NCBI GenBank assembly: GCA_012798265.1
Contig: JAAZNM010000004.1
Span: 62,001 to 126,000, forward strand
Source of the DNA: Candidatus Roizmanbacteria bacterium
Lineage (GTDB): Bacteria > Patescibacteriota > Microgenomatia > UBA1406 > GWC2-37-13
Direction: 5' to 3'
DNA length: 64,000 bases
Below are positions 3,063-28,176 of the stretch, in pieces (the stretch's first letter is position 1; every line of letters begins with the position of its first letter). The notes beneath the pieces were generated by a model. It saw nothing but the letters and a program-made list of their open reading frames with translations, searched no databases and was not told the DNA's origin. A program made the translations under genes and the position numbers.

Positions 3063-4807
3063 AATTCAAACATCTCTCGTTTTTTTTTGAAAAAATAGAA
3101 GAAACAGCTTCGAGATTGGTTATTACCGAATATTTGGCCGATCTTTTTAAGGAGATAGCTCCTGAGCAAATAGATAAGACCGTTTATCTTCTTCAAGGCA
3201 GGATACGGCCGTCTTTCGAGTCTTTGGAGTTTGGGGTCGCGGAAAAGACGGTCGTCAAAAGCATTCTCTCCGCCTTCAACCTGGAGAAAAAGCTGTTTGA
3301 CAGTGAGTATCGGATATCGGGCGATATCGGAAAGACCGCCGAAAAGTTCAAAAAAGAGATAATGTCGCTTGAAGAAAAAGACCTGTCCATAGATGAAGTT
3401 TACAGGGATTTTTACCGTCTGGCGACATCCAGCGGTAACGGATCCCAGGAGGTTAAAATTAATATCCTGGCCCATCTTTTACGCCAGAGCGATCCGTTAT
3501 CCTGCCGTTATCTAGTCAGGATTCCCTTGGGGATCATGCGTCTGGGTTTTTCAGATATGACTGTTTTGGACGCTCTTTCTTGGATGATCAAAGGCGATAA
3601 AAGCCTAAGACCGGTTATTGAAAAAGCCTACCATGTTAGACCGGATCTTGGATTTATCGCCAGGACGATTAAGGAAAAGGGGGTTGACGGTTTGAATAAG
3701 ATCGGTCCGGAGGTGTTTACCCCGATTATCATGATGCGGGCGGAGAGGTTGTCCTCCGGTCAGGAGATAGTCGACAAGATCGGCCGGTGTGCCGTTGAGC
3801 CGAAATACGACGGATTTCGTCTCCAGGTACATTATAAAAACGATCAGGTGAAACTATATTCGAGAAATCTGGAAGAGGTTTCCTATATGTATCCCGATAT
3901 TATTGAAGGAGTTAAAAAAGAGGTCGGGGCCAAGGAGATTGTCTTTGAGGGAGAGGCGGTTGGTTTTGATCCGAAGACTGAAGCATTCCTTCCTTTCCAG
4001 GAGACAGTCCAACGGAAAAGAAAGTACGATATAGAGTCTAAAGCTAAGGAGATTCCTTTGAAGTTGTTTGCTTTTGAACTTTTATATAAGGATGGAGAAA
4101 ACCTGGTTGGGATACCGTATGATGAAAGAAGAAAAAAACTGGAAAAATCCCTGGAAGTTTCCGGGAAGATATCCCAGGATACGATTCTGCTTGCCCCAGG
4201 AGAACTGACCGATGAGGGTCCGAAAATAGAACTGTTGTTCGATGAGGCTATCGCCAAAGGTCTTGAGGGGATTATCGCCAAAAAACTGGATGGTATTTAC
4301 CAGCCTGGAGCCCGCGGCTGGAACTGGATCAAATTCAAGCGAAGCTATTCTTCCAAAATCGATGACACGATAGACTGTCTGGTAATGGGTTATGATGTCG
4401 GTAAGGGCAAAAGAGCCGGTTTTGGCATCGGCGCTTTTTTGGTCGGTGTTTATGACACTCAGTATGACCGTTACGTAACGGTAGCCAAAATTGGTACCGG
4501 TCTGACGGATGAGGAATGGCAAGAGATAAGGAAACGTTGCGATAAGATCCGGACCGATGACACCAAAGGTTATGAGGTCGACAAAATGATGTCGGTAGAT
4601 GTCTGGGTTAAACCTTCATTGGTAGTTGAGATAAAAGCCGATGAGATAACAAAGTCGCCGGTTCATACCGCCGGACGCAGTAATAAAAACTCTTCGGGTC
4701 TGGCTTTAAGATTCCCTCGGTTGGTCAGATTCAGGGACGACAAAAACCCCCAGGAAACCACTACCTTAACGGAGTTAGAAGAGATGTTTGCCAAGCAAAA
4801 TCGGTAA
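3059..4807 (+). CDS. lig: ATP-dependent DNA ligase, archaeal/eukaryotic type I family
   Basis: Seals nicks in duplex DNA through an enzyme-AMP intermediate. The order of domains is visible: an N-terminal helical DNA-binding domain (about 1-220), a nucleotidyltransferase domain with motif I VEPKYDGFRLQVH (adenylated Lys at about 249), SRNLEEVSYMYPDI, motif III FEGEAVGFD, motif IV EGIIAKKLDG and motif V WIKFKR, then an OB domain. The length of 582 is close to archaeal LigI-type enzymes (about 560-600) and much longer than minimal bacterial LigD/LigB modules. CPR bacteria are known to carry such ligases. It starts inside the stop of the small membrane protein gene. Its 3' end overlaps the convergent glycosyltransferase gene by 33 bp. 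Confidence 0.93.
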   Translation: MKFKHLSFFFEKIEETASRLVITEYLADLFKEIAPEQIDKTVYLLQGRIRPSFESLEFGVAEKTVVKSILSAFNLEKKLFDSEYRISGDIGKTAEKFKKEIMSLEEKDLSIDEVYRDFYRLATSSGNGSQEVKINILAHLLRQSDPLSCRYLVRIPLGIMRLGFSDMTVLDALSWMIKGDKSLRPVIEKAYHVRPDLGFIARTIKEKGVDGLNKIGPEVFTPIIMMRAERLSSGQEIVDKIGRCAVEPKYDGFRLQVHYKNDQVKLYSRNLEEVSYMYPDIIEGVKKEVGAKEIVFEGEAVGFDPKTEAFLPFQETVQRKRKYDIESKAKEIPLKLFAFELLYKDGENLVGIPYDERRKKLEKSLEVSGKISQDTILLAPGELTDEGPKIELLFDEAIAKGLEGIIAKKLDGIYQPGARGWNWIKFKRSYSSKIDDTIDCLVMGYDVGKGKRAGFGIGAFLVGVYDTQYDRYVTVAKIGTGLTDEEWQEIRKRCDKIRTDDTKGYEVDKMMSVDVWVKPSLVVEIKADEITKSPVHTAGRSNKNSSGLALRFPRLVRFRDDKNPQETTTLTELEEMFAKQNR

Positions 4808-5476
4808 TTGGTGGTTTTGGAATGTCTTAACCAACCGGAGCGGATATTCAGTAAAGAAAGAGATTGGATTGTTTTTCATCCTGCGGCCAGAAGCTTTGAC
4901 CGTCAGGTGGTTATCCCTTTTTATAATCCCGTCTTCCTCAAGAATGTGGATAGCCAGGTCAATGTCTTCATGAACTTTGGTGTCGTCAAGGCAGACTTTA
5001 TCTTTGACTTTATCCCACATTTTTTTGCTTAAGGCCATATTAGGTCCGACCAGGGTTTCCATGCCTTTTTGGATAAGTTTCATAAAATAAAAATATCTTA
5101 TCGCGATCTTATTTGTTTTCAGGATGGTGTCGTAGAGAATAATCGGCCCGGTCAAAGCGTCTATTTTTGATTTGTCAAAGTTTTTTTTGATTCTGGTTAT
5201 CCAGTCGGTCGGAAGAATGGTGTCGGCATCGCAACGGGCGATAATGTCATACCTGGCGGCGTTGAATCCGCTATTTCTTGCAAAAATTATTCCCTGTCTG
5301 GCTTCCTTTACGATCGATACCGAAAACTGTTTGGCGATAGATATCGTTTTGTCGGAGCAGTTGTTGTCGACAACGATTATTTCGTCGGCTTTTTCTTTTT
5401 GTTTCTGAAGACTGGTAAGGCATTTTTTTATATATTTTTCTTCGTTGTAGGCGGGAATCACTACGGATACTTTCAT
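4775..5476 (-). CDS. Family 2 glycosyltransferase
   Basis: A 233-residue GT-A fold enzyme beginning MKVSVVIPAYNEEKYIKKCL. The nucleotide-binding sites are visible as VVDNNCSDKT and ARCDADTILP (a D-x-D-like motif), with an acceptor-side segment HEDIDLA. It has no membrane helix and probably acts at the cytoplasmic face, transferring sugar to a lipid or polysaccharide acceptor; the substrate cannot be read from the sequence. It is transcribed divergently from the second GT2 gene, with 34 bp between the starts, and its last 33 bp overlap the DNA ligase end on the other strand. Confidence 0.88.
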   Translation of the reverse strand: MKVSVVIPAYNEEKYIKKCLTSLQKQKEKADEIIVVDNNCSDKTISIAKQFSVSIVKEARQGIIFARNSGFNAARYDIIARCDADTILPTDWITRIKKNFDKSKIDALTGPIILYDTILKTNKIAIRYFYFMKLIQKGMETLVGPNMALSKKMWDKVKDKVCLDDTKVHEDIDLAIHILEEDGIIKRDNHLTVKASGRRMKNNPISFFTEYPLRLVKTFQNHQLPILLGKHLF

Positions 5477-5510
5477 AATAATATTTTAACAAATGCTATA
5501 ATTTATCCTT

Positions 5511-6323
5511 ATGAAGCCGTTTTTTTCGATAATTATCCCGACTCTCAATGAAGAGTTTTTTATCTCCCGGTTGTTGAAAAATATCCAAAACCAGAAGGAA
5601 AAAGATTTTGAAGTGATAGTGGTAGATGCCCGGTCTCAAGACAGGACCAGCCAGGTGGTCGCCGGTTTTTCGGATCTGCCGTTAAGATTTGTCCAGGTCA
5701 ACAAGAAAAACGTTTCATATCAGCGTAATTACGGGGCCGATTTGTCAAACGGCCGGTATTTGGTTTTCTTGGATGCCGACGCCGGTGTCTCCGCATCTTT
5801 TCTCAGCCATCTGAAGAAGGCCATTACGAATAAGAAAGGCTTGGTTTTTATTCCTTATATATATCCGGAAAAAAAAGACAGCCAGTTTGAATTCATTTTT
5901 TCTTTCGTCAATATTATGATCGAACTTTCCCAGAATATAAGCAAGCCGTTTTCTTCTGGTGGATCGATGATCCTGGAAAAAAACTTTTTCCAGTTGGTCG
6001 GCGGCTTTGACGAAAAGCTGTTTTTGGCCGAAGATCATAACATCATCAAAAAAGCCTATCAATGGGGAGTGAGGCCGAAGTTCGAAAAAAATATAAAATT
6101 AAAATTTTCGTTAAGGAGAATGAAAAAAGAAGGCCAGCTGGCTTTTTTTTATAAAAACATCATCTCGCCGGCCTATCTGTTGCTGAAAGGGGATATCAAA
6201 GATAAGATATTTGACTATGAGATGGGTGGCGCCGGTTACATGAGGGCGGAAAAGGGGACTTCGATAGAAAAGTTCATTAAAAAAAACCTTATGCAAATAA
6301 AGAAATTTCTCAAGACTCTCTGA
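5511..6323 (+). CDS. Family 2 glycosyltransferase
   Basis: A 270-residue GT2 protein starting MKPFFSIIIPTLNEEFFISR, with VVDARSQDRTSQ, the FLDADAGVS D-x-D site, and AEDHNIIKKA late in the catalytic domain. The C-terminal quarter is basic, with one moderately hydrophobic segment (about 205-225), consistent with membrane association. The start is supported by an extended -10 (TGCTATAAT, hexamer 5497-5502) ending only 8 nt before the ATG. With its divergent GT2 neighbour it probably serves surface glycan or glycolipid synthesis. The specific sugar is unknown. Confidence 0.88.
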   Translation: MKPFFSIIIPTLNEEFFISRLLKNIQNQKEKDFEVIVVDARSQDRTSQVVAGFSDLPLRFVQVNKKNVSYQRNYGADLSNGRYLVFLDADAGVSASFLSHLKKAITNKKGLVFIPYIYPEKKDSQFEFIFSFVNIMIELSQNISKPFSSGGSMILEKNFFQLVGGFDEKLFLAEDHNIIKKAYQWGVRPKFEKNIKLKFSLRRMKKEGQLAFFYKNIISPAYLLLKGDIKDKIFDYEMGGAGYMRAEKGTSIEKFIKKNLMQIKKFLKTL

Positions 6324-6329
6324 ACTTCT

Positions 6330-7046
6330 TCAAATGTCAAAAACGGAAAAAATCGGATAATGGTCGGAAAAACGACAGTCAATCCGGGTGGTTTTTATCA
6401 AATCTATGTTTTTATAAAGGATATAGTCGAGTTTTAGGCGGATTGACATGAAGGGAAAAGATTTGGCCTCAAGGGTATAGGGGATATTATTTGTCGCTTC
6501 TTTCAGGTTGGAGGCGAAGATGAGTTTTTCAAACTTCTTTCTTCCGTACGGATAGTTAAAATCGCCGGCGATAATCGCCGTTTCCGATGTGTCTTTGTTG
6601 AGATCGGCCAAGGTTTCCTTGACTTGTTTGAAACGGATGCCGTTTGATCCCCACGGGGAAAGGTGAACGGTGTACACGGAGATAAGTTTGCCGCTCTTCA
6701 GACGAAATTTGGTCTTTAGGACGTTTCTGGGATTGTTGCCTCCTCTAAGGACGATCAGTAATCCTTCCAAAAAGCTCCGAGGAAGATTGAAGCTTTCCGA
6801 TCTGACTAAATCCAATTTTTGGCGATTGAAATAAGTGGCTACCCCGAAGATTTTATTAAACTTGAAAAAAGAGTTGGAAAAATCAGCCAATTGGTATTGG
6901 TCGAAGGCGAGGTTTTGGAGATTTTCCTCAGTAGTAATGATTTCCTGCAGACAGACGATATCGGGCCGATATTTTTGCACCAGAGGTTTAATCTGTTCAG
7001 AGGCTTTATTAAACAGGATGTTGTAGGTCAATACCGACACTTCCAT
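6330..7046 (-). CDS. Endonuclease/exonuclease/phosphatase (EEP) family hydrolase
   Basis: A 238-residue protein of the DNase I-like metal-dependent phosphodiesterase fold. Motifs in order: VLTYNILF (Asn for metal), IVCLQEI (metal-binding Glu), YTVHLSPWG (catalytic His region), IIAGDFNYPYG (the G-D-F-N signature), LDYILYKN, and FSDHYPIFSVF (the terminal S-D-H catalytic triad). The substrate could be DNA, RNA, phosphoinositide-like lipid or another phosphodiester; this cannot be decided. No signal peptide is visible, so it is probably cytosolic. TATAAT on the minus strand (7054-7059) ends 7 nt before the ATG. It lies 6 bp from the end of the convergent GT2 gene. Confidence 0.85.
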   Translation of the reverse strand: MEVSVLTYNILFNKASEQIKPLVQKYRPDIVCLQEIITTEENLQNLAFDQYQLADFSNSFFKFNKIFGVATYFNRQKLDLVRSESFNLPRSFLEGLLIVLRGGNNPRNVLKTKFRLKSGKLISVYTVHLSPWGSNGIRFKQVKETLADLNKDTSETAIIAGDFNYPYGRKKFEKLIFASNLKEATNNIPYTLEAKSFPFMSIRLKLDYILYKNIDLIKTTRIDCRFSDHYPIFSVFDI

Positions 7047-21577: not shown

Positions 21578-24500
21578 ATGGCCTTTTTTGATTTTATAAA
21601 AAAACCGACGGCAAATGCAAACGATCAATCGACTCCGGTTCCTCCGCAACCTGTACAGAGCTCTCCAAAGCCCTATTCAGGCATAGGTAATCCGCCTTCG
21701 GGTCAGGCATATTCCGGCATCGGCAGTCCGCCTTCTTCGACTGCGACTCAGCCTGTTGGGCCGACCGCGGTCCCACCAGCAAACCAGCCGCCGGTCAATC
21801 AGTTTTTGAGTAAACAGCAGCAGGTTAATAACATAAAAAACTTGATTAACGACCCGAAATTAGTCCATCCGAATACGGATAAACCGTCTCAAGATCCTAA
21901 AAAACCGTCACCGACGGATTTAAACAAAAGTCCAAGTCCAACCGGACCGGTCAAATCCGGATCTCCGGCGCCGGGCGCCACCGATAAAAAAAAGGAAGAT
22001 ATCGATCTGATGACTCATCTGACCCAAAGATCGAACAGGGTTTTTCTCTCGGCCCAAACCAAAGCCAAAGAACTGAAAACCCAGTTTATCGACAGCGAAC
22101 ATCTTCTTCATGGTTTGCTTTCTGATACTGAGATATACAATCTTTTAGTTGAGATGAAGATCCAGCCTCAAGTAGTTGAAGAGGAGCTGGCCAAGATTTA
22201 CAAAAGGGAGAATGTCCAGACTTTGCCCCAGCCTTCACCGAGGATCAAAAGAATCCTTGACAACTCATTGGTCATTGCCCGCAAACTTGGTTTTGAATTT
22301 ATTTCTCCTGAACATTTATTACTGTCTTTGTATGAAGAAGGTGAAGGAGCCGGAGCCAGGATTCTTTCCAAACTGGGGGCAAAAAAAGAAGAACTGAACA
22401 AAAAGATCGTCGGCAGGAAAGAAGGATTGGAAGCCGATCAGAAAGAAGCGGAAAAAAAGAAAAGTTCGCTGGAGGAGTTTACTATCGATCTGACGGCTAA
22501 GGCTTCCCAGGGATTGCTTGATCCGGTGGTTGAGCGTTCTGAGGTGATAGAGAGGGCGATACATATTTTATCCCGCCGAACCAAAAACAACCCGGCCCTG
22601 GTCGGAGAGGCCGGCGTCGGTAAAACCGCCATTATTGAAGGACTGGCCCAGAAAATAGTTTCCAAACAGGTACCGGAGCCGCTTTTGAACAAAAAAATCC
22701 TCCAACTGGATCTGATGAGTATTTTGGCCGGGGCTTCGCACAGGGGAGAGTTTGAAGAAAGGATGAAGAACCTGATCGAAGAGGTCAAAAGTAGCCAAGG
22801 GCAGATAATTCTTTTTATTGACGAGATTCACAATATCGTCGGTGCCGGGTCATCGGGCGAGGGATCGCTTGATGCCTCAAACTTCCTTAAACCGGCCTTG
22901 GCCCGCGGCGAAATTCAGCTTATCGGAGCGACTACTTTAACCGAATACCGGAAATACATCGAAAAAGATCCGGCTTTGGAAAGAAGATTCCAACCGGTAA
23001 TCGTGCCGGAACCGACAGAAGAGCAGGCAATAAAAATGCTCAAAGCCATAAAAGACAAATACGAAGCCTTCCATAGGGTTAAGATACCGGAGGCGGCCGT
23101 TGACGGTGCGGTTGTCCTGTCAAAACGCTATATCGGTGACCGTTTCCTGCCCGATAAGGCGGTTGATCTTATCGATGAAGCGTCGTCAGCCGTAAGGTTG
23201 CCGATGATTTCACTCCCCGAGGAAATCCGCTCCGTCGAAACGAGGATGGCCGAGTTGAACCAAGAACTAAAAGAGACTGAGAAAACCGGTGACAAAGTCA
23301 GGGGCCGGATATTAAGGTCGAAGATCGATGATACCCAGTCGGTCCTTAAGGAAAAACAGGAAGAATACAATCTGAAAAAATCGCAGACGACGACGGAGGT
23401 AACGGTCGATATCATAAAAGATATCATCTCCCGCTGGACGGGTATTCCGGTCTCAAAAATTACCGCAAGCGAGGTGGAAAGGTTGGCTAATCTGGAGAAG
23501 ATCATGCACGAACGTCTGATAGACCAGGAGGCGGCGGTTACCGCCGTTGCCCAGGCGGTCAGGCGCGGTAAAGCCGGTTTGAAGTCGACCCAAAGGCCGA
23601 TCGGCAGTTTCGTTTTCCTGGGTCCGACCGGCGTCGGTAAAACCGAGCTGGCCAAAACCTTAGCCGATATCCTTTTCGGCCAGGAAGAAGCGATGGTAAG
23701 GTTCGATATGACCGAATACATGGAAAAACATGAAGTGGCCAAATTATTGGGAGCACCGCCCGGATATGTCGGTTATGAAGAGGGTGGTAAACTTACCGAG
23801 GCTGTCAGGCGGCGTCCGTATTCGGTCGTACTTTTTGACGAGGTGGAAAAAGCCCATCCGGATATCTTCAATATCCTTCTTCAGATACTTGACGACGGGC
23901 GTCTGACCGATAACAAAGGCAAGGTCATCTCTTTCAAGAATACGGTAGTTATCTGTACTTCGAATATCGGCACCAAAGTAATCCAGGACGAACTGCTGAA
24001 AAACGGCAAGACCGAAGTCGAAGAGCCGCCGGTGTTATCAACCTATGCCTTTTCTCCAAGAGGCAGGGAGATACTGACGATCGGCAACAAGTATTTCGAA
24101 CAGGAAAAAAAGAGCGAGTCGGGTGAAGGCGAGTGGAAAAGTCAGATGCTTCTTGATTATTTCGCCGGACAGCAGGTCGATCCAAAAGTAGAGTTTCCGG
24201 TTTACGGTTTCGATACCCAAGCGATATCTCCCCAGGGCGAAGAGATAATCACCAAAAACGATAAAGTCTATCTGAGGAAGTCGACCACGGCCAAAACATG
24301 GAACAGCAGTAATCTTATCGAATACTTCAAGGAAGGAGTGGTTATCAACGCTCTTCCTGATGCACCGGATGAACAGCTGCCGACAGTCAAACTTAAGACG
24401 CATGCTTTTACCCCTGACGAGAACGAGGTAGTCACCTACAAAGACCGTTATTGGATGCGTAAACAGGGGACCAAGGATTGGCAAACATGTCTTTTGAAAG

Positions 24501-25387
24501 ACTATTTTGTTGATCAGTCTTTGGATAAGGGCAGTCTACCGACTACCCACTGGGATGTCCATACTTTTTCCCCGACAGGGACAGAGGTCGTTATTCTCGA
24601 GAATAACGTTTATATGAGAAAAACCGGAGAAAAAGCCTGGAAATCCGTTACCTTAAAAGAGTACTTCGGCAAAGACTTCCCGTTGGAAAAAGAAATAGAG
24701 GAAAAGAAAAAAGTCGAGGATGAGGTCGACGGCAAAAAATATCAGGGCATAAAAGGCAAGGTTATGGAGGAGTTGCGCAAGTTTTTCCGCCCGGAACTTA
24801 TCAACCGGTTTGACGAAGTAATTATTTTCGAGCCGTTGAAGTTTGTCCATATGATGGCCATAGTCAAACTTCAGTTAAAAGGCGTCGGTAAACTGCTTGA
24901 AGATCAGAGTATAGGATTTGCCTATACGGATTCCGCAGTCAAGGAGATAGTCAGGGCCGGTTTTGATCCTATCTATGGAGCCAGGCCGTTAAGACGGGCG
25001 ATACAAAAACTGGTCGAAAACCCGATATCGACGTTGATTATCGAACAAAAAGTCAAACCGGCCGACCAGTTGACGGTAGATTTTGATGGTGACAGTTTCA
25101 TATTCAACGTCGAGAAAACCGAACTGGTGCAGGTGGATAAAGCCAATCCGGTAAAAAAATTCAAATGCCAGACTTGCGGAGCCGAATTTGAAACCGAGAT
25201 CGTCAAAAACTCGACCTTGATCTGTCCTAAGTGTGCCTCGAAAAAACTTCAAGAGTTGGTCGCCAAACCAGAAGAAAAAAAGCCAGAGATCCAAACCCAA
25301 GTTCCTGTTAAGACTAACGGGGCTGCTAAAAAAACGTTACCGACAGAATCTCAAACAGGAAGTCCACAAGTCTCGGCAGCCGCTTAA
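21578..25387 (+). CDS. Clp/Hsp100 AAA+ unfoldase (ClpC/ClpB-like) with four-repeat insertion and C-terminal zinc ribbon
   Basis: A 1269-residue protein from ATG 21578. Order: Pro/Ser-rich N-terminus (1-140); Clp-N repeats (about 145-280); AAA-1 with GEAGVGKT (343-350) and LFIDE (412-416); short middle region (about 545-605); AAA-2 with GPTGVGKT (682-689), LFDE (752-755) and sensor-1 TSN (794-796). An insertion of about 245 residues (811-1055) follows, with four repeats ending at about 862, 917, 977 and 1030. Then [11 protein letters not shown] (arginine finger), D2-small with GARPLRR (1134-1140), and a CxxC...CxxC ribbon (1197, 1200, 1216, 1219). In ClpA/ClpC the ClpP-docking loop lies where the insertion is. 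It unfolds proteins with ATP in the cytosol; partners are unknown. Confidence 0.88.
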
Positions 25388-25402: not shown

Positions 25403-25720
25403 ATGTTAAATTACACCCCGCTAGATTTGGAAAAGCTCAAAAAAAAAGATAACGGAGTCAATACGATGTTGCTTCTGATGGCGACATTGACCGCCGGCAT
25501 ATTGGCGGTAATGCTTTTTGTCCTTATCCAAAAAAAAACCAGTCAAGAGCAACTGCCAAGCACGACCTATACCGATACGAGTATCGAGTCGCCTACGCCT
25601 TCATTGACCGGTGAGGAGATGATGCCGACGGCAAGCGTCAGTCCGGTGCTTGATATAAGTCCCGCAGTTTCATCCCCATCGGGCCAATCGGCATCGTCGA
25701 CTCCAGAGCTAACAAAATGA
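25403..25720 (+). CDS. Small single-TM protein with Ser/Thr/Pro tail
   Basis: A 105-residue protein: charged N-terminus (1-20), one helix (about 22-43, LLLMATLTAGILAVMLFVLI), then a Ser/Thr/Pro-rich external tail of about 60 residues with no recognised motif. It starts 15 bp after the Clp ATPase stop and its own stop overlaps the next ATG (ATGA, 25717-25720), so it belongs to the same transcript. TATATT at 25392-25397 lies 5 nt before the ATG. A spacer or anchor role in the complex is possible but not shown. Confidence 0.65.
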   Translation: MLNYTPLDLEKLKKKDNGVNTMLLLMATLTAGILAVMLFVLIQKKTSQEQLPSTTYTDTSIESPTPSLTGEEMMPTASVSPVLDISPAVSSPSGQSASSTPELTK

Positions 25721-26409
25721 GTAATAATATCCCCATCGCCCTTATTTTTTTTCTGGTTCAGGTTCTGCTGATTTTTTTCGTTTCCCGGTTGACTATCAAT
25801 AACATCTTTTATTTTCTCCGGCGCTTCACCAAAAACGAAAAATTGATTTTTAGCTTGGTTTCGTTGTTTTTTTTGCCCGGGACATTACTCCATGAGATTG
25901 CCCATTTTTTTGGGGCGATGGTAATGATGCTTAAGGTCCATCAGGTGACGGTTTTTCCGACATGGCATGATGATTACATAAAACTAGGAAGTGTCGTCTA
26001 CGAAAAAAAAGACTTCCTGCGGGGAGTTATCGTCGGTATCTTTCCTTTCGTCTTCGGTACCGGTTTTTTTTGGCTGGTGGCCAAATTCAAACTGTTTCCC
26101 CAACCCAATCTTCTATTGAATGTCCTATGGATTTATCTTTTTTTCAATATTTCCTCGACGATGTTTTCCTCCAAACAGGATCTGATTGACATAGTTTACA
26201 TCCTGCCGGTATTGGTGATTGTCGCCGGGTTCGTATACATATTCAATATCGATGTCGTTGGAATATTGAACAGCCCAAAAATAAGGGACAATTTGCTAGA
26301 CTTTACTAGAGAAGTGAATTATTATCTGACGATGTCTTTGGGGATCAATTTAGGGTTGTTAGTCATATTTAAAAGTTTTTCGCTTTTGTTCAACAAACAT
26401 GGAAAATAG
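25717..26409 (+). CDS. Polytopic membrane protein with HEIAH (metalloprotease-like) motif
   Basis: A 230-residue protein with about five or six membrane helices. FFLPGTLLHEIAHFFGAMVM places an HExxH zinc-binding motif (about residues 60-64) inside or beside a helix, as in M50/site-2 proteases. A later segment FNISSTMFSSKQDLIDI could play the part of the second M50 motif (N-x(2)-P-x(n)-D), although the Pro and Gly of the canonical site are missing. The gene is coupled to the one before (ATGA) and overlaps the pilin-like gene after it by 11 bp. An intramembrane protease is the best guess; a non-catalytic relative is equally possible. Confidence 0.55.
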   Translation: MSNNIPIALIFFLVQVLLIFFVSRLTINNIFYFLRRFTKNEKLIFSLVSLFFLPGTLLHEIAHFFGAMVMMLKVHQVTVFPTWHDDYIKLGSVVYEKKDFLRGVIVGIFPFVFGTGFFWLVAKFKLFPQPNLLLNVLWIYLFFNISSTMFSSKQDLIDIVYILPVLVIVAGFVYIFNIDVVGILNSPKIRDNLLDFTREVNYYLTMSLGINLGLLVIFKSFSLLFNKHGK

Positions 26410-26841: not shown

Positions 26842-28176
26842 ATGTTTAAATCAAACAAAGAACCTCCAATAATACTTTCGATCGGCGGCAGTTTGATCGT
26901 TCCTGATGGGGGAGTTGATACGGACTTTCTTTCCAAATTAAATAAATTCATTAGGCAACAGGTGGCAAAAGGTAAAAGGTTTTTCTTAGTTGCTGGTGGT
27001 GGTAAAACAGCCAGACGTTATCGAGATGCTGGTAAGGCGGTTATCGGTAATTTAACCAGCGAAGATCTTGATTGGTTAGGTATACACTCCACCCGTCTGA
27101 ATGCCCATCTTTTAAGGACAATATTTCAAGATATTGCCCATCCGCGAATAATCGACGATTACAGCCATAAGGTAAGGCAATGGCGGGAGCCAATCATGGT
27201 TGGTTCGGGATGGAAACCGGGTTGGTCGACCGACTATGATGCGGTTATCCTTGCCCGTGACTATAACGCCAACGTGATTGTCAATTTGTCCAACGTTGAC
27301 TGGGTTTATGATAAGGATCCGCGTAAGTATCCGGATGCCAAAATCATCAAAAAACTGACATGGGAGGAGATGGAAAAACTGGTTGGCACCAAGTGGAGTC
27401 CTGGGATAAATGCTCCTTTTGATCCGGTAGCCGCCCAGCTTGCCAAAAAAATCTGTCTTACTGTAATTGTCGCCAATGGTCTTGATTTTAAAAATATGGA
27501 GAAGATAGTCGAAGGCGATTCTTTCAAAGGTACGGTGATAATGCCTTTTAACATAGATGCCGGTTTTTATGACAGGGAGTATTATACCGGCAAAAAAGGC
27601 GAGTACCGTTTCGGCTATGTCGAGTCTGTTTTCGGAAAAGTTCTCCACAACCTTATCAATTTTTATCGGGCTTTCTTAATAAAAATTTTCTTGAATCCGA
27701 AAAACTGTTTGGATGTCGGTTGCGGTACCGGTAAGCTTATCCGCTGGCTGAAATTCTTTGGGATCGAGTCTTACGGAATAGAGATTTCAAAACAGGCGCT
27801 CGACCTGGCCGATCAGTCGATCAAACCTTTTTTGAAATCGGGCGATATTATCAAAATCCCTTATCCTGATGATCATTTTGATCTGGTTCTGACATATGAC
27901 GTCATGGAACATCTGGAAAGGTCAAAAATAAAAAAAGCGGTTGAAGAGACGATCAGGGTTTCCCGTAGACATGTGCTCCATAAGATATATACTTTGGAAA
28001 ACCAATGGATAAACCTTACCCATAAACGCGATTTTTCCCATGTCTCCGTTTTCAGCAAAAAATACTGGCAAAAACTTTTCGCATCTTTTGAAAATGTTTC
28101 CATCCTCAGAGGTTCTTTTTTCAAACTGTCTTCTTTTTTTGAGACAATATTCTTATTAAGGAAAAAACCGTCATAA
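26842..28176 (+). CDS. Fusion: archaeal-type UMP kinase + class I SAM methyltransferase
   Basis: A 444-residue protein. Residues 1-236 are an amino-acid-kinase-fold UMP kinase of the archaeal PyrH type: LSIGGSLIVPDGGVDTDFLS, FLVAGGGKTARRYRDAG, MVGSGWKPGWSTDYDAVILA, VIVNLSNVDWVYDKDPRKYP and a C-terminal KGTVI. It phosphorylates UMP to UDP. Residues about 255-444 are a Rossmann methyltransferase with motif I CLDVGCGTGKLIRW (about 290), ESYGIEI and DLVLTYDVMEHLE. The two halves share one frame with no stop, so this is a true fusion unless the assembly joined two genes. The methyl acceptor is unknown. It is followed 4 bp later by recF. Confidence 0.85.
   Translation: MFKSNKEPPIILSIGGSLIVPDGGVDTDFLSKLNKFIRQQVAKGKRFFLVAGGGKTARRYRDAGKAVIGNLTSEDLDWLGIHSTRLNAHLLRTIFQDIAHPRIIDDYSHKVRQWREPIMVGSGWKPGWSTDYDAVILARDYNANVIVNLSNVDWVYDKDPRKYPDAKIIKKLTWEEMEKLVGTKWSPGINAPFDPVAAQLAKKICLTVIVANGLDFKNMEKIVEGDSFKGTVIMPFNIDAGFYDREYYTGKKGEYRFGYVESVFGKVLHNLINFYRAFLIKIFLNPKNCLDVGCGTGKLIRWLKFFGIESYGIEISKQALDLADQSIKPFLKSGDIIKIPYPDDHFDLVLTYDVMEHLERSKIKKAVEETIRVSRRHVLHKIYTLENQWINLTHKRDFSHVSVFSKKYWQKLFASFENVSILRGSFFKLSSFFETIFLLRKKPS

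Follow-up and report, generated by a model that had tools for sequence, protein, structure and literature searches.

The window analysed here (a stretch of 64,000 nucleotides from a Candidatus Roizmanbacteria bacterium) encodes a ClpC-like double-ring AAA+ unfoldase (21578-25384, + strand; 1269 aa from its ATG) with an inserted domain that very probably has a hemopexin-type fold and lies at the position where ClpC docks on ClpP. Clp ATPases have been taken either to possess a ClpP-docking loop (ClpA, ClpC, ClpX) or to lack one (ClpB); in this case, an entire folded domain is predicted to occupy the docking site, and it has long been kept under selection in one bacterial class. The explanation that we prefer, and consider reasonably probable, is that the protein is a ClpC-type unfoldase that works independently of ClpP and uses propellers on its exit face as a docking or handling platform.

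Domain layout and fold of the insert

Pfam matches along the open reading frame comprised Clp_N, AAA, AAA_lid_9, AAA_2 and ClpB_D2-small, and all of the features described below lie on the + strand. A Pro-rich, low-complexity N-terminal extension (21578-22018) precedes the Clp_N double repeat (22019-22411; PF02861, with LTQRSNR at residue 148), which is followed by the D1 AAA module (22598-22996; Walker A GEAGVGKT, Walker B ILFIDE, pore loop GASHRGEFE), a short ClpC-type middle domain recognised by its position and by an alignment with ClpC that lacks the long ClpB middle domain (23216-23386), and the D2 AAA core (23594-24001; PF07724 at residues 673-808; Walker A GPTGVGKT, Walker B VVLFDE, pore loop GAPPGYVG). 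The small part of D2 (24785-25078; PF10431) contains an 11-residue motif and sensor 2 (GARPL). Motifs for ATP use and threading are preserved in the two rings: Walker A and B of each are intact, and so are sensor 2, the arginine-finger region and the pore loop of D2. The C-terminus carries a zinc-ribbon-like CxxC...CxxC (25148-25258; C1197, C1216), for which the PF09723 score of 25 bits is below the cut-off of 34.4, and which most of the family's insert-free orthologues share. A first-pass annotation of the sequence had pointed out both these cysteine pairs and the Pro-rich N-terminus, and both are present in the Clp protein. The D1 pore loop (22730-22756) has His in place of the Tyr of ClpC and ClpB. 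Two further Clp relatives were observed in the same genome: a ClpB-like disaggregase without an N domain (C2, L001:139-2292, +) and a degenerate Clp-like protein of 739 aa (C5, L003:13-2232, +) with hydrophobic, probably membrane-spanning N-terminal stretches, weak matches of similar size to which occur in many genomes of the family.

Sensor 1 (TSN) is found at residue 794 and FRPELINR at residue 1070, with 276 residues between them, about 230 of which make up the insert. The first-pass annotation had placed a four-repeat domain between sensor 1 and the 11-residue D2 motif, and this holds; its limits of residues 811-1055 do not, as the insert proper spans residues of about 812-1035 (24011-24682) and a model of D2 plus the insert shows a long helix leading back into D2 from residue 1036. 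This predicted continuous helix, or stalk, is 34 residues long (24683-24784; helix 431-464 of model m2311fe299b35, pLDDT 83-87). The four repeats form blade 1 (residues 820-865; 24035-24172), which has a hypervariable loop between its strands 3 and 4, blade 2 (residues 877-921; 24206-24340), blade 3 (residues 938-980; 24389-24517) and blade 4 (residues 991-1034; 24548-24679), with a conserved 16-residue linker (24338-24385) between blades 2 and 3. When profiles built from one blade across 35 orthologues were scored against the other three blades, median scores were 20-42 bits, whereas the top score among about 2,600 shuffled sequences was 9-13 bits, and the repeats are therefore real.

An AlphaFold2 model of the insert alone, predicted from an alignment of 35 inserts (m5e72f08f3e67), reached a pLDDT of 93.4 and a pTM of 0.88 and shows four units of four strands each, a predicted closed four-bladed propeller of the kind that defines the hemopexin fold; the earlier idea of an independent binding platform is thereby supported in so far as the isolated insert is predicted to be globular. 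The top Foldseek matches in the PDB were hemopexin-fold proteins, namely the grass pea albumin LS24 (3lp9, TM 0.67/0.68), the hemopexin domain of MMP-14 (3c7x, TM 0.63/0.73, rmsd 2.8) and a Dolichos albumin (6ix1, TM 0.70/0.71), with hemopexin itself also matched, and in a second library (viral proteins) metalloproteinase hemopexin domains ranked first. No Pfam family matched the insert sequence, including Hemopexin (PF00045), and a genome search with PF00045 also misses the gene; the statement about hemopexin thus concerns fold and not family membership. Weak, scattered Pfam matches (DUF6273, P_proprotein, Proteasome_A_N and others) were set aside, and a reading as SH3-like repeats, to which weak profile matches to SLA1 in the PDB had pointed (E 0.13-0.3), was ruled out by the structure model and Foldseek. 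A closed ring of four blades explains why the number of repeats stays constant: 55 of 59 unique sequences have exactly four blades, the four exceptions being a nested propeller (one gene, two overlapping loci), one split blade and one truncation at a contig end. In the nested case (G066, L032; 9 fragments), a complete second four-blade propeller is nested in the first, within the variable loop of its blade 1.

Distribution and descent of the insert

While the Clp gene is near-universal in the family, with some Clp match in 70 of 72 genomes, the insert is present in 38 of the 72. A search of 329 genomes of the class gave 41 matches to the insert, among which one (G129) is not a Clp and one (G281) is a remnant, and a sample of 380 genomes of the phylum added a single weak match. 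Across about 85,000 species genomes that were scanned, all records with the insert either carried one of the names Roizmanbacteria, Woesebacteria, Gottesmanbacteria, Microgenomates and Patescibacteria or belonged to unnamed bacteria. The insert is restricted to Microgenomates (Roizmanbacteria, Gottesmanbacteria and their relatives).

On a tree of the ATPase core, the presence and absence of the insert needs 10 changes, at least five of which are forced by well supported branches; as many forks of this quickly built tree are weak, the losses can be counted only approximately. Distances between inserts are correlated with those between cores (Mantel r 0.76, with 0 of 2000 permutations as high), and the insert diverges about twice as far as the core. 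Taken together, the tree changes and the distance correlation favour one old gain followed by several losses over repeated capture. The dN/dS of the insert was about 0.11 in two pairs of sequences (two other pairs being saturated at synonymous sites), and several invariant residues survive its deep divergence. The favoured history is therefore that of an old, vertically inherited domain that is under purifying selection and has been lost several times. Since these losses left the gene and its neighbourhood in place, the motor can do without the propeller.

These repeats are also found in other settings, which indicates that the propeller is a separable module. The non-Clp match, G129, encodes two secreted proteins with dockerin-like C-termini (L185:3-2372 and 4491-6779, +), each of which has four such repeats, located in one of them just upstream of a DUF2961 match. 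A membrane-anchored protein of 250 aa with at least two related blades is found in another class of Patescibacteria (G623, L204:1120-1872, -). The Clp remnant of G281 (L186:5665-6723, +; 353 aa) has a degraded Walker A and no Walker B; it retains all four repeats and is followed, as is usual for this locus, by the M50-like, pilin and RecF genes.

ClpP and the gene neighbourhood

When an insert-free orthologue (from G014), which is 86% identical to the window's Clp over the aligned ATPase core, was aligned with Bacillus subtilis and Staphylococcus aureus ClpC, the insert site fell exactly over the ClpP-binding loop (KYVGF and FAGF, respectively), bearing out the proposal that the insert occupies the docking site. 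No conserved (L/I/V)G(F/L) tripeptide was found between TSN and FRPE among 74 sequences, a set that includes the ClpB of the same genome, and the expected absence of an IGL/VGF loop is thus borne out. Insert-free orthologues have about 50-155 residues at the site, mostly of low complexity and with no conserved tripeptide, and the motif is likewise missing from those of sister genera and of other families. No ClpP gene was found in the organism's own genome, which is 99% complete, and this agrees with the first-pass annotation. The protein combines two AAA+ modules, Walker A and B, a D2 pore loop and sensor 2, as in Hsp100/Clp class I (ClpA/B/C type), with the N domain, short middle domain and top similarity of ClpC; the long middle domain of ClpB, a coiled coil of about 90 aa, is missing, and the short one aligns with that of ClpC. 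Given the lack of a conserved docking tripeptide, it is classed as ClpC-like and not as a ClpC that partners ClpP. In this organism, the unfoldase is likely to be ClpP-independent.

Canonical ClpP (>150 bits) was found in only 11 of the 329 class genomes, so that its absence is the general state of the class. None of the 11 bears the insert; however, an overlap of only 1.3 genomes would be expected by chance (canonical ClpP in 11 of 329, the insert in about 40 of 329), and the lack of overlap is uninformative. The idea that the insert arose because ClpP was lost was rejected, as ClpP is missing both with and without it. The further claim that the repeats replaced the ClpP contact was not supported, for the same reason and because insert-free orthologues also lack the motif; with docking lost whether or not a propeller is present, 'swapped' is too strong a word. 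The simplest order would be that ClpP docking was lost first and the propeller was gained afterwards. Divergent ClpP-like genes (68-75 bits) do occur in three insert-bearing genomes (G069, G218 and G096), one of which was examined and retains a plausible Ser and His; ClpP independence is therefore not proven everywhere.

Upstream of the Clp gene are genes for a membrane protein, a C39-like peptidase and a type IV secretion pilin-like protein, and downstream is another pilin gene; in Gottesmanbacteria, PrgI and a VirB4/TraG-like ATPase adjoin Clp. Insert-free orthologues share this type IV secretion-like neighbourhood in the same gene order (including L212/L213), whereas one insert-bearing orthologue (L187) adjoins ribosomal protein genes. 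Some insert-free orthologues adjoin DnaJ, and one of these adjoins DnaK too. Clp is thus associated with secretion genes, and in some cases with chaperone genes as well; this association does not come from the propeller. In another family, a run of DnaK, T4SS pilin, large membrane protein, insert-free Clp and DnaJ genes was observed (L216:12-10311). Within the window, an M50-like membrane protein with a HEIAH motif and no Pfam match is encoded at 25717-26409, and such genes often adjoin Clp in Roizmanbacteria and Gottesmanbacteria alike; this HExxH protein was rejected as a partner of the propeller, as its occurrence is unrelated to the presence of the insert. At 26842-28176, one open reading frame fuses an amino acid kinase domain to a methyltransferase domain. 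A role in anti-phage defence was also discarded, with the PADLOC matches confined to the shared AAA core.

Proposed role of the propeller and relation to known Clp proteins

Under the preferred explanation, the docking loop would first have been reduced in this lineage to a free, low-complexity linker without the tripeptide, and this linker may later have received a complete hemopexin-fold propeller, a domain suited to insertion into a loop by its neighbouring N and C termini. In ClpC, the underside of the ring is where the LGF loops are found (PMC10149685); if the hexamer here has the same geometry, its D2 exit face, where ClpC meets ClpP, should be surrounded by six propellers, each on a helical stalk. 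There, they would probably keep hold of a partner or of the polypeptide as it emerges, so that it can be refolded or delivered rather than destroyed. Such docking on the exit side has, in our estimation, an even chance of being correct. The DnaJ and DnaK genes beside insert-free orthologues count toward a stand-alone chaperone role, and the dead Clp remnant that keeps its propeller in the same gene order also counts for this explanation. The repeated loss of the insert and the three insert-bearing genomes with ClpP-like genes count against it. A stretch of 13 residues in the linker between blades 2 and 3 is the strongest candidate for the contact or interface: the linker is kept in nearly all Clp versions and is missing from the secreted propellers, a pattern that suggests a Clp-specific contact.

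There are several other potential explanations for the insert. It is possible that the propeller recognises substrates or adaptors through peptide, glycan or metal binding and has no special exit role, as might be expected from the secreted dockerin-like proteins (one beside DUF2961) and the membrane-anchored protein that carry the same repeats, and from the use of hemopexin-fold domains as general binding modules (PMC6934871). However, the Clp-specific conservation of the linker and the location of the site, distal to the substrate entry side of known Clp enzymes, make this unlikely. The first-pass annotation had instead taken the repeats to stand in for the ClpP contact and perhaps to connect the unfoldase with the surrounding secretion-like machinery, handing unfolded proteins over to it. 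Its position at an exit-face loop and the pilin, PrgI and VirB4/TraG-like neighbours agree with such coupling, but we consider it quite unlikely, given that orthologues without the insert lack the docking motif too and that the insert occurs outside this neighbourhood; moreover, the earlier annotation had itself held that repeat-free homologues in otherwise identical neighbourhoods would speak against its proposal, and these were looked for and found. A more specific version, in which six propellers form a second ring that docks the exit pore onto a type IV secretion-like membrane machine, is decidedly improbable; if true, unfolded proteins would be exported and not degraded, and the export motor HSP101 of Plasmodium would be the counterpart of such a secretion-docked bacterial unfoldase.

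It is also conceivable that the insert is baggage of little function tolerated at a permissive loop. While its repeated loss, its faster divergence relative to the core and the highly variable length of its flanking low-complexity linkers are all compatible with this, the low dN/dS, the blade number held at four, the residues that stay invariant over deep divergence and the persistence of the propeller in a Clp remnant without Walker motifs render it very unlikely. Finally, the protein could be the ATPase of an ordinary ClpCP protease that binds a divergent ClpP through propeller contacts, for which the three insert-bearing genomes with ClpP-like genes, one of them with plausible Ser and His residues, could be cited; as ClpP is lacking from the own genome and from most insert-bearing genomes, and the docking tripeptide is not conserved, we regard this as highly improbable. 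If the propeller of the preferred, ClpP-independent unfoldase does hold a partner, it would illustrate a way of connecting an unfoldase to a different machine downstream, and since natural orthologues with and without the propeller exist in the same gene order, the question is directly testable.

No publication connecting hemopexin with Clp ATPases was found in the literature searched, and a limited search returned no description of a folded domain inside the ClpP-docking site. Like the insert, the hemopexin-fold propellers of MMP domains and plant 2S albumins (LS24, CP4, DC25) consist of four four-stranded blades separated by short helices, and they match it with a TM of up to 0.70/0.73; the insert differs from them in its sequence (8-14% identity, no PF00045 match), its cytoplasmic location and its nesting inside an ATPase. 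The ClpC proteins of B. subtilis and S. aureus share Clp_N, D1, the short middle domain and D2 with the Clp of the window, and ClpC was both the nearest solved sequence to an insert-free orthologue (about 799 bits) and the best structural match to the D2 model; compared to ClpC, the Clp of the window has a propeller instead of a VGF-type loop, a zinc-ribbon C-terminus and no ClpP in its genome. The ClpB disaggregase also has two AAA modules and no ClpP-docking motif, but it has a long middle domain, and a separate ClpB-like gene is present in the same genome (L001). The closest published idea is that of ClpIb of Actinomycetota, whose middle domain is likewise short and ClpC-like, which lacks the LGF motif and which has been proposed to act alone, providing a precedent for independent short-M unfoldases (PMC10149685). 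The likeness is one of described features between different phyla. The loop region of ClpIb is very short (about 5 aa) and has no inserted domain (PMC10149685), whereas that of the Clp in the window holds a predicted propeller.
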